Source of the DNA: Thermococcus guaymasensis DSM 11113
GTDB taxonomy: Archaea; Methanobacteriota_B; Thermococci; Thermococcales; Thermococcaceae
DNA: 64,000 nt
NCBI RefSeq assembly: GCF_000816105.1
Contig: NZ_CP007140.1
Location: 1 to 64,000, forward strand
Direction of reading: 5' to 3'
The notes beneath the pieces were generated by a model, which was not told where the DNA came from, did no database searches, and saw nothing but the letters and a program-made list of their open reading frames with translations. The position numbers and the translations under genes are program-made. Shown here in pieces: positions 194 through 54,088 of this stretch (position 1 is the first letter of the stretch; every line of letters starts with the position of its first letter).

Positions 194-218
194 CCCTTCA
201 GGGCGGGGAGGAGGTCAG
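101..218 (+). ncRNA. Right end and omegaRNA-like scaffold of the left-edge TnpB element
   Basis: Three hairpins follow each other: TGGCCGG-AGAC-CCGGCCA (101-118), ACCCACT-TTTT-AGTGGGT (131-148) and GCCC-TTCA-GGGC (193-204). They are followed by GGGGAGGAGGTCAG, ending near 218. The first and third recur, with changed but still paired stems and unchanged AGAC and TTCA loops, in the element at 53529-53935 (AGAC) and at 20594-20605 (TTCA). In characterised TnpB systems the guide RNA spans the tnpB 3' end plus the right end, with the guide just outside. Transcription here is inferred, not seen. Confidence 0.5.
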
Positions 219-2118: not shown

Positions 2119-2676
2119 ATGCTGGAGCTGTTCTTGGAGCTCGGAAACCTGAAGAGGCTCCCGAGAACGGGATGGCTCTTGCGGGGGGTGCCTAGTCCCG
2201 AGCCCATAGCGGCCCACTCCTACAGAGTTGCCATGATAACCCTTTTTCTGGCCGATGAGCTCAAATCGAGGGGCGTTGAAATCGACGTTGAGAAGGCCCT
2301 CAAGATAGCGCTCCTCCACGACGTCGGCGAGGCTAGGATGACTGACATCCCGATGCCGGCCCAGAGGTACTTCAACAAGGTCAAGGGTGAGGTCAAGGCG
2401 CTGAGGGAGATGCTGAGCGTCACAGGCAGGGAGGGAGAGTACCTAAGCCTGTTCCGCGAGTACGAGGAGGAGCTGAGCGTAGAAGGAAAGCTCGTTAAGT
2501 TCGCCGACAGGCTGGAGATGCTGATTCAGGCTTATGAGTATGAAAAGGCGGGCTTCAGGAATTTAGACGAGTTCTGGGGAGCGGTAAACAAGCTCAGGGA
2601 GAGCGAGCTCTATCGGTACTTTGGGGAACTCGTTGAGGGACTTGTGGAGCGGAGGGAAAAGCTGCATCGAGGTTAG
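2119..2676 (+). CDS. HD-domain phosphohydrolase (YfbR/HDDC2-like nucleotidase family)
   Basis: About 185 residues. HD-superfamily metal ligands are visible: H in EPIAAHSYRVA, the HD of LLHDVGEARMTDIP, and a late D in KFADRLEML. The pattern IAAHSYR...HD.GE...D.P is that of 5'-deoxynucleotidases acting on dNMPs; the substrate here is inferred. GGAGG (2107-2111) is well spaced for the ATG at 2119; a GTG at 2113 is the alternative. The last 83 bases overlap antisense the 3' end of the adjacent tnpB, so an element appears to have landed at or next to the stop codon. Confidence 0.8.
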   Translation: MLELFLELGNLKRLPRTGWLLRGVPSPEPIAAHSYRVAMITLFLADELKSRGVEIDVEKALKIALLHDVGEARMTDIPMPAQRYFNKVKGEVKALREMLSVTGREGEYLSLFREYEEELSVEGKLVKFADRLEMLIQAYEYEKAGFRNLDEFWGAVNKLRESELYRYFGELVEGLVERREKLHRG

Positions 2677-3871
2677 CCCACCGTTCTGGTTGTCCGCTAC
2701 TTTTGGAACTTGTGAACCAATCGTAGCGGATAACCTTCCCCACTCCCGTCTTCATTGGAGGGCTTTCGGGGGGAACGGTTACTCCCCACATCTTCAGGGC
2801 TCTTAAACGAACATTCCAACTCCCAACCACGTCCCGATCGGCTTCAAACCCACAATTCGAACACTTTAAAACCCTGTGCCCATTCGGGCTTAGTTTTTCC
2901 CCACATACCGGGCACAGGGAGGAAGTAAAGGCCGGATTCACGAAAACAACCCTAACTCCCCTCAATTTAGCCTTGTATTCAATAATGCTCTGAAGTTTCC
3001 TAAAACTCCACCTGTGAAGTCTCCCATTCATCTCAGCCGAATACCTGATTGAATCCCTGATTTCCGCCAAATCTTCCAGAGCAATTCCACCATACTTCTC
3101 CGCTAACTCAACAATTTTGTTGGCCAGCTTGTGACAAAGGTCGTTAAGCCTGTTCTTCTCCCTCCGCCCATATTTTTCGAGAAGCCCTCTCCTCCTCTTT
3201 CCAGCCCTAATTTTCCGCTGAATTTTCCTCCGCTTTAGGAAGTAGCCCGTTCTAACCTCTCGCTCGTGCGTGATTATTTGAACAAATTCACCGTTTGGAA
3301 GGGAAAGCGTTACATTGTTCTCGTTCAAATCCACCCCAACAAAGGCTTTAAGCTCTTCAACCTCGACTTCCCTTGAGAAGACGACGTTTAGGAAGACTCC
3401 CTTCGGTGTTTTCACCAACCAAGCCTGCCCAACCTTCCAGTCCTTGAACTTCTCGTGGTATTTTGCAGGATAAAACTCCAACTGAATCCTTCTATTCGGA
3501 GTTGAGAGTTTTACGGTTTTGTTCTCTAAATCGAGTTTGAAGAGATGGTCGTCCAGCATAATGACTTCCCTTTTGAATACTGGCTTTCCCTTGGCTTTTC
3601 CCTTCTTTTTGCGTTTCCTAAAGCTTTTGAAGATTGCAGTCGCCATTTGGCAGGCCGTGTAGAGATAATGGCTTGGGAGTTCTGGATACTCTTGGCGGAG
3701 GCTTTTGTAAGTCTCCTTTTTCAACCGGTAGAAGCTGGTTACAGTATTCTCAAAAGCATGAGTGATGAGGAAGTTCACAATTTCCCGGTAAGTTTGGAAG
3801 AGGGCACCTAACCCTTCTGGCGTTTCCTTGAGCTTGAATTTTGCAGTGAGTTTGATGGTTTCACTCGACAT
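2594..3871 (-). CDS. tnpB: TnpB (IS1341/IS605 OrfB-type) RNA-guided nuclease of an insertion element
   Basis: 425 residues from ATG 3871 (MSSETIKL). The RuvC-like residues look intact: D in FVGVDLNENN, E in GGIALEDLAEI, and D in FEADRDVVGSWN. A zinc ribbon CPVC...CSNC lies between the last two. No tnpA accompanies it; instead an RHH protein gene overlaps its start. The last ~28 codons (2594-2676) read antisense through the end of the HD gene, so the normal stop seems lost and the flanking DNA supplies one. Family knowledge: TnpB cuts DNA guided by an RNA from the element's right end. An in-frame upstream start at 3928 is less likely, because 3871 lies at the RHH stop. Confidence 0.88.
   Translation of the reverse strand: MSSETIKLTAKFKLKETPEGLGALFQTYREIVNFLITHAFENTVTSFYRLKKETYKSLRQEYPELPSHYLYTACQMATAIFKSFRKRKKKGKAKGKPVFKREVIMLDDHLFKLDLENKTVKLSTPNRRIQLEFYPAKYHEKFKDWKVGQAWLVKTPKGVFLNVVFSREVEVEELKAFVGVDLNENNVTLSLPNGEFVQIITHEREVRTGYFLKRRKIQRKIRAGKRRRGLLEKYGRREKNRLNDLCHKLANKIVELAEKYGGIALEDLAEIRDSIRYSAEMNGRLHRWSFRKLQSIIEYKAKLRGVRVVFVNPAFTSSLCPVCGEKLSPNGHRVLKCSNCGFEADRDVVGSWNVRLRALKMWGVTVPPESPPMKTGVGKVIRYDWFTSSKSSGQPERWANLDAAFPSAPQVPQRVPQSTDRARSP
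2688..2735 (-). other. Terminal hairpin at the 3' end of tnpB (candidate right-end/guide-RNA stem)
   Basis: On the minus strand GGTTATCCGCTAC and GTAGCGGACAACC pair over 13 bases with one mismatch. An inner TTGG/CCAA stem encloses a ten-base loop. The hairpin lies in the last part of tnpB, about ten bases before the HD gene begins on the other side, where the right end of an IS605-type element should be. Its sequence is unrelated to the TTCA hairpins elsewhere in the window, so this is a different element subfamily. Confidence 0.5.
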
Positions 3872-4025
3872 TTTCCAGCTCCTTTTTTGTTTTCTTAATC
3901 CAATCCTTGATTGCCTCTTCAATTGCAACGCTTAGAACTCCTCTTTTGTCTCCATAACGTTTTTTAGCGAGTTTTTTAAACTCCTCAAGGGTTTCCTCAC
4001 TGATGACGAAAGTTGCTTTAGGCAT
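3861..4025 (-). CDS. Ribbon-helix-helix protein upstream of and overlapping tnpB
   Basis: 54 residues starting MPKATFVISEETLEEFKK. One beta strand (ATFVIS) followed by two helices with GVLSVAIEEAIKDW is the CopG/Arc RHH pattern. Its stop (TGA 3861-3863) lies inside the first codons of tnpB, so the two are translationally coupled. It probably represses the element's promoter; two 14-base repeats lie upstream of the TATA box. It replaces the usual TnpA partner in this element. The small size fits an RHH domain with a short basic tail. Confidence 0.72.
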   Translation of the reverse strand: MPKATFVISEETLEEFKKLAKKRYGDKRGVLSVAIEEAIKDWIKKTKKELENVE

Positions 4026-20413: not shown

Positions 20414-20587
20414 TCCCTCCGGGGTCAATGGGCCTTAACGTTTCTGTAGTTTTCTTTAGCCTTATTTTCTGACATAACACCTCATTTATCTCGTCCAGAT
20501 GCTCGGCGACCACGGGCTCGATACACTTCAAATCTCCATATACACCCCTTTGCCTGGCGGCGATTCCTTTTACATTTTTCTTTCTCA

Positions 20588-20619
20588 AGCCTCGCCGTTC
20601 ACGGCGGGGAGGAGGTCAG
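20588..20619 (+). mobile_element. Solo right end of a TnpB-type element
   Basis: CGCCG-TTCA-CGGCG hairpin followed by GGGAGGAGGTCAG. It matches the right end at 193-218 in the TTCA loop and all of the 3' motif, while the stem bases differ in a compensating way. The preceding ~170 bases (20414-20587) hold no recognisable tnpB tail or other gene; I see nothing else in them. It ends about 40 bases ahead of a palindromic operator. Confidence 0.6.
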
Positions 20620-53375: not shown

Positions 53376-53450
53376 GCTTTCACCCCTCATTTCTCAATCA
53401 CGGTCGCGTATCCATCGTTTTTCCATTAATGGCATTGTATGAGCATCTCC

Positions 53451-53519
53451 TCATCCCGCCATCAGCAGTCCAAGAAGGACTGCCAACAATGAAAACAACT
53501 TCAAGTAGTTCACCTTCAC
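53451..53519 (-). CDS. Possible 22-residue hydrophobic peptide or gene remnant
   Basis: GTG 53519 gives VKVNYLKLFSLLAVLLGLLMAG then stop. It looks exactly like a signal peptide h-region without the mature part. GGAGGT of the element's right end lies 11 bases in front. It could be the cut-off start of an exported protein whose gene was destroyed by the element, or a small membrane peptide leading to the next gene. Weak evidence. Confidence 0.25.
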   Translation of the reverse strand: MKVNYLKLFSLLAVLLGLLMAG

Positions 53520-53528
53520 TGTAGTTTT

Positions 53529-53935
53529 CTGACCTCCTCCCTGCCGTGAAGGGTGAGGGTTGCAACGAGTTAACCCCTTGCCAGTGGTGGGGAGGTTTGC
53601 GGGCCCATAACCTACTCGTGTTACCACTTTCGGCTCAGCCCGCGGGCCCGGTCTCGGGCCCATTACCCCTACCGGCCAAAGCCGGATTGGGGTTATCGCT
53701 TTAGGGGCCACCTTACAGGGTTTTAACCGCTCAAGGCGGTTTTGAAAGGACGCTTAACAGCGTCAACCCTCCAATGCTGGAGGGTAACATGAAACCCCTC
53801 ATCCCATCGGGTTGTTCCTTAGTGACCTCTTCAAAGCCTTATTACGCTGGCAAGACTTAAAAGGGTTTCGGTCTATGGGGGGTCGGGCTCTCAATTACTG
53901 CATCCCGCCCTAAAGGGCGAGACTTTCAAAAGAAA
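53529..53935 (-). mobile_element. Protein-less TnpB-type element (PATE-like) / solo omegaRNA-like structure
   Basis: On the minus strand the region starts with CGCCC-TTTA-GGGCG (53906-53919) and ends with CCCTTCACGGCAGGGAGGAGGTCAG (end 53529), the right-end motif seen at 193-218. Between lie hairpins at 53767-53784 (7 bp, four-base loop), 53751-53762, 53725-53741, 53672-53685 (CCGGC/GCCGG) and 53644-53661 (GGGCCCG/CGGGCCC, minus-strand loop AGAC). The last, and the AAACCTCCCC...GGGGTTA stretch (53575-53615), align with bases 90-193 of the left-edge element. No TnpB reading frame is left. The 53376-53528 part and the ~150 bases right of 53935 hold no firm gene. Confidence 0.7.
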
Positions 53936-54088
53936 AAAGTAAACATGAACATCATGATGATTAACGTCCTTGAGCTCGCGACGGAGCTACTCGTTCGCTA
54001 TTTTCCTGTTGTCCGTGATTTGTACTCCATACGGAGTGCCATAGACGTTTCTCATGACTGTTACAGGATTTTGAAACCACTCCTCTAT

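Follow-up and report, generated by a model that had tools for sequence, protein, structure and literature searches.

A protein-free PATE-like element of Thermococcaceae carries a conserved two-domain RNA gene and is a candidate source of omegaRNA for TnpB

The window analyzed here, a stretch of 64,000 nucleotides from a complete Thermococcus-type genome of 1.92 Mb, carries a protein-free element of 410 bp at 53529-53938 on the minus strand, which is also the RNA and tnpB sense. By its tested features, the element belongs to the PATEs, the palindrome-associated transposable elements described in Haloquadratum (PMC3119063), because it combines subterminal palindromes, no coding capacity and precise insertion without target duplication. 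Rather than the remains of a decayed transposon, it is in its entirety a conserved RNA gene with two domains. We consider it probable that this non-autonomous relative of IS200/IS605 yields, as its sole product, a structured RNA about 300 nt long with a guide at its 3' side, which would supply omegaRNA to TnpB in trans.

The whole element was recognized as PATE-like and non-coding by homology, with three further full copies in the genome (379113, 621682 and 1659445, each 82-83% identical to the window copy) and dozens in relatives; its boundaries were taken from the empty site of the sister copy 1659445. A previous reading of the letters (hereafter the sequence-only reading) had placed the element at 53529-53935 and compared two copies. 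Its low end stands; the genome holds four full copies, and the high end had to be moved to 53938, because by homology with the sister-copy insertion the element begins right after the TTAC at 53939-53942. The copies share no reading frame, and their stop-free stretches vary in frame and length. Matches to the element or its ends were found in 77 of 94 Thermococcaceae genomes. R1, a covariance model of the element-specific interior, gave 208 matches in 54 of the 94 genomes, covering five of six genera, and in the host genome it matched exactly the four full copies. A plasmid collection searched with the element returned no match. A two-part pattern run against genome contigs matched a single Thermococcaceae contig, which says little on spread beyond this family because near relatives may be absent from the contigs scanned.

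The target or transposon-adjacent motif TTAC, directly 5' of the left end (53939-53942, minus strand), is enriched across the family: it stands immediately before 43 of 64 copies, whereas control windows further upstream contain it in 0-5 of 63, and T[TGC]A[CT] stands immediately before 59 of 64. The uninterrupted site of copy 1659445, in which AAACCTTAC runs directly into CACAGGTGTCC, was found with small variation in 11 relatives, including G018, G019, G032 and G065. In the filled site, the element lies exactly between TTAC and CACAGG with no target duplication, and the bases past its right end are the empty target adjoining TTAC. Our results showed that the family inserts precisely 3' of TTAC in the manner of IS200/IS605, which supports the PATE half of the sequence-only reading. 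The match which that reading expected between the bases just outside the right end and a target site holds for this sister copy in the 11 relatives. For the window copy, no relative retains an uninterrupted locus; for copy 621682, only poorly alignable sites were found and these were left unused.

Both element ends match IS605-type ends of the host genome and carry near-terminal palindromes, and terminal inverted repeats are absent. The left-end subterminal palindrome GTCTCGCCC-TTTA-GGGCGGGAT, with a GAAAG foot at its 5' side, occupies 53902-53923 (minus strand), and about 32 nt of this end recur at many other IS605-type ends in the genome. The hairpin GCCC-TTTA-GGGC, which had been called the left one, does belong to the element's left end; in the window it is placed at the high-coordinate side, at about 53909-53920. 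As had been noticed, the right-end motif GGAGGAGGTCAG is exact both at 53529-53540 (minus strand) and at 207-218 (plus strand), where it belongs to the TnpB element at the window's left edge. A third copy of the motif, at 20608-20619, lies in a terminal-only relative of about 47 bp (20573-20619, plus strand), in which a left end preceded by TTAC is fused to a right end. About 20 further single-end matches in the genome may be terminal-only elements too. The element sits just 5' of a signal-peptide-like frame, VKVNYLKLFSLLAVLLGLLMAG (window about 53450-53520, minus strand), which stops at once; this stretch recurs many times in related genomes, there before longer frames.

Read along the minus strand, TTAC is followed by the left-end palindrome, a variable spacer, the AAACCCTTTTAA block, five hairpins and a 3' part of 168 nt. 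The AAACCCTTTTAA block (53857-53868) is promoter-like, resembling a BRE/TATA element; it is present in 102 of 113 full copies and in most of them stands 14-16 nt before the first hairpin. In T. kodakarensis, the TATA box lies about 23 nt upstream of start sites (PMC4247193), and counting this distance from the TATA-like block predicts that transcription would begin at the base of the first hairpin. The element-specific 5' RNA domain, defined by covariation and R1, spans 145 nt (53697-53842) and comprises hairpins at 53824-53838, 53793-53813, 53766-53785, 53749-53764 and 53725-53741, all on the minus strand. The omegaRNA-like 3' domain, of HgcC type (53529-53696), runs from ATAACCCC to GGAGGAGGTCAG and opens with an invariant ATAACC; it was delineated by the R2 model described below, by covariation and by a weak Rfam HgcC match. 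It includes the hairpin GGGCCCG-AGAC-CGGGCCC (53644-53661), in which four of six counted pairs changed on both sides. By analogy with TnpB omegaRNAs, the 20 nt that follow the right end on its 3' side, AAAACTACAGTGAAGGTGAA (53509-53528), would be the guide. RNAalifold paired the TATA-like block with GGGGTTAA close to the right end, a solution that was not adopted because it competes with the hairpin formed locally at that end. The 5' RNA domain and the promoter-like block, as well as the gene conversion reported below, were absent from the sequence-only reading.

R2, a covariance model of the 3' half built only from protein-free elements, matched the window element with an E-value of 2.5e-63. 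Ten tnpB hits in the host genome exceed the Pfam cut-off, and at nine of them R2 also matched the 3' end (E 9e-27 to 9e-43); the tnpB genes at 772 and 1064 kb carry the closest scaffolds. For the tnpB element that lies at the left edge of the window, R2 located a related omegaRNA-like 3' end at 56-218 on the plus strand (E 1.2e-27). That a single model recognizes both the 3' 168 nt of the element and the 3' ends of tnpB elements bears out the omegaRNA likeness proposed earlier, and the family and the tnpB elements of the same genome have the whole omegaRNA-type scaffold and the ends in common. The one exception among the ten is the tnpB at window 2594-3928 (minus strand), which has no R2 match beside it; it is apparently intact, 444 aa long, and of a different TnpB type. 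A 5' domain of R1 type was not found in the host tnpB elements beyond weak matches (E 5e-5 or worse) that overlap the omegaRNA. Two tnpB elements give a weak R1 match at their omegaRNA end, at L113 1549-1686 and L120 1950-2093 (E 5e-5 and 3e-4), which may point to an ancient duplication or have arisen by chance.

The 3' region was also matched by the Rfam family HgcC (RF00062), with 22.7 bits and an E-value of 0.011. Because this score is under the curated 50-bit cut-off, the window copy does not count as a member of Rfam HgcC, even though it is of the same kind. Position, strand and the 3' end at transposon right ends are the same; unlike the element, the Rfam model spans 130 nt and leaves the 145-nt 5' domain outside. 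HgcC matches occur in 75 of the 94 family genomes. In G023, which we take to be T. kodakarensis KOD1, they are placed as expected for TK0298, TK0495, TK0850 and TK1820. At TK1820, the match adjoins a PDZ metalloprotease gene; the HgcC5-type match directly downstream of the T. kodakarensis PDZ metalloprotease gene (L110 450-633) is a shorter relative that scores 19.5 bits with R2. The T. kodakarensis match at 1474300 is a 5'-truncated family member overlapping the start of a 145-aa hypothetical frame. This overlap is as described for HgcC4 in TK1679, which has a mapped transcription start, and HgcC1-3 are transcribed in sense direction from inside transposase genes (PMC4247193). The copy at 1474300 corresponds to HgcC4, an assignment made here and not by PMC4247193; two other T. 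kodakarensis candidate matches do not fit. Since the HgcC4 copy begins at about position 149 of 410 and contains neither the left end nor the proposed promoter, its transcription is no test of that promoter. A literature search whose scope did not extend to the main omegaRNA papers found no paper linking HgcC with TnpB; the link may already be in print, and we do not claim its first description.

The sequence-only reading had argued for selection on RNA structure from short hairpins, mostly with four-base loops, and from a difference between two AGAC-loop stems. Inverted repeats are indeed present at 53766-53785, 53749-53764, 53725-53741, 53644-53661 and 53903-53922, with four-base loops in most, and the minus-strand RNA folds at -172.1 kcal/mol, compared to -142.7 +/- 6.8 for its shuffles (z -4.3, none of 100 as good). 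The stems TGGCCGG/CCGGCCA (about 101-118) and GGGCCCG/CGGGCCC (53644-53661) read as it had stated, and their difference grew into a covariation signal over 40 copies: with 39-40 copies aligned, covariation was strong in both domains. In the 3' part (40 copies), 93% of pair cells are paired; sliding the partner strand by 1-3 columns, a control that keeps the relatedness of the sequences, lowers this share to 51% or less. Both sides changed in 16 of its 35 pairs, giving 79 such cells compared to 26 after shuffling, a control that related sequences can inflate. In the 5' domain (39 copies), the corresponding values are 92% against at most 52% for the slid strand, and 13 of 30 pairs with 73 such cells against 23; covariation counts of this kind are complicated by ectopic gene conversion among copies. 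Taken with the three further copies at 82-83% identity, covariation this far above the controls makes the structure more than chance, and the 145-nt 5' domain is under selection for base pairing.

No Y1 transposase (Y1_Tnp) was found in the host genome; a transposase that moves the element would have to be supplied in trans, and the genome lacks one today. Among the 94 family genomes, 25 carry Y1_Tnp and 22 of these 25 also carry the element. PATE copy number tracks tnpB copy number (rho 0.67) more closely than it tracks tnpA (rho 0.43); the former correlation agrees with the use of TnpB, yet could reflect overall transposon load. The draft genomes G050 and G062 carry PATE, yet have no tnpB match better than 1e-4. 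An ordinary PATE, in which only the ends matter for TnpA and the RNA-like structure is an unused inheritance from a parental tnpB element, would sit well with the lack of TnpA in this genome and with the divergence of the copies (82-83% identity), and the terminal-only element of 47 bp at 20573-20619 suggests that ends alone may suffice to move. TnpA has no need of the interior, yet pairing there is kept with compensatory changes across 39 copies, and this interior is missing from the tnpB elements examined, whereas passive remnants should decay. We consider this explanation rather unlikely.

On the minus strand, G-U cells exceed A-C cells about twofold (97:45 and 78:41), which identifies it as the folded strand; taken by itself, this bias fits RNA and single-stranded DNA alike. 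IS200/IS605 elements are mobilized in single-stranded form, with their ends read as hairpins, and a structure selected in the excised strand, where hairpins could help TnpA or protect the circle, would equally be expected to favor G-T over A-C. However, Y1 transposases require the end hairpins only. The 3' half, moreover, is of the transcribed HgcC/omegaRNA type (PMC4247193) and the TATA-like block is suitably spaced upstream of the first hairpin, so that selection on DNA structure appears very improbable.

At three insertion sites occupied in two genomes each (L002/L040, L054/L060 and L093/L178), flank identity is 96.5-100% but element identity only 90-91%, and the differences between elements come in blocks. 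Positions 40-120 of L054 are 100% identical to L138, and those of L060 are nearest to L221; the interior of L002 is 96% identical to L004, and for the L178 tract the nearest sequences are other copies in G077. In the cases that allowed a search for the donor, the replaced blocks best match other copies of the same genome; L040 is the exception, its nearest interior lying in a different genome, G018. No clear excess was seen at the remaining shared sites. We read these mosaics as the likely outcome of ectopic gene conversion between dispersed copies, because of which the identity of two copies is no measure of insertion age. The least probable explanation, a domesticated regulator in which the omegaRNA serves gene regulation or the copy acts on a neighboring gene, could invoke some insertions found in more than one species and the position just 5' of a truncated signal-peptide frame from a repeated family, but the copies are dispersed, sites found in more than one species number only 8 among 136 loci, the neighboring frame ends after about 22 codons and the window copy shows no positional conservation.

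Like the Haloquadratum PATEs, the element has near-terminal IS605-type palindromes without terminal inverted repeats or target duplication, is too short for a transposase and has terminal-only versions of about 50 bp (PMC3119063). Unlike them, described as non-coding repeats, it carries a two-domain covarying RNA and a promoter-like block, in 54 genomes. The omegaRNA (reRNA) of TnpB in IS200/IS605 likewise has a scaffold ending at the transposon right end before a would-be guide, and a TTAC-type motif at the left end; the element differs in overlapping no tnpB gene and in its longer 5' side, and it would have to act in trans. Stand-alone omegaRNAs of IscB were reportedly found by Altae-Tran in 2021; they too hold a guide scaffold apart from the nuclease gene, with IscB rather than TnpB as the nuclease.

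If the element is a trans-encoded omegaRNA gene, as we propose, it would be transcribed on the minus strand from its own TATA-like promoter, its last 168 nt would fold as an omegaRNA to which a TnpB encoded elsewhere binds, and the chromosomal bases after GGAGGAGGTCAG would become the guide. The ribonucleoprotein would then cut TTAC sites that lost the element, and repair from a filled copy would restore it; movement would depend on a Y1 transposase (TnpA) acting in trans, today absent from the genome. TnpB binding, guide use, cleavage and restoration are steps that follow established TnpB work. Our most likely guess for the 5' domain is that it stabilizes the RNA or helps it to compete for TnpB. 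More speculatively, and with doubt prevailing, the copies may be mobile protein-free guide-RNA genes, each insertion reprogramming a chromosomal TnpB in trans against its own empty site, with the 145-nt domain as an adaptation of a parasitic RNA.

The element links the HgcC non-coding RNAs of hyperthermophiles, the transposase-free PATE class and the guide RNAs of TnpB, an ancestor of CRISPR enzymes, which are usually treated apart. Its conserved 5' domain is an RNA structure that offers 208 matches for study. T. kodakarensis, genetically tractable and with a mapped HgcC4 transcript, makes the question directly testable. If the RNA works in trans, many dispersed guide genes would serve one nuclease, in a CRISPR-like arrangement without CRISPR.
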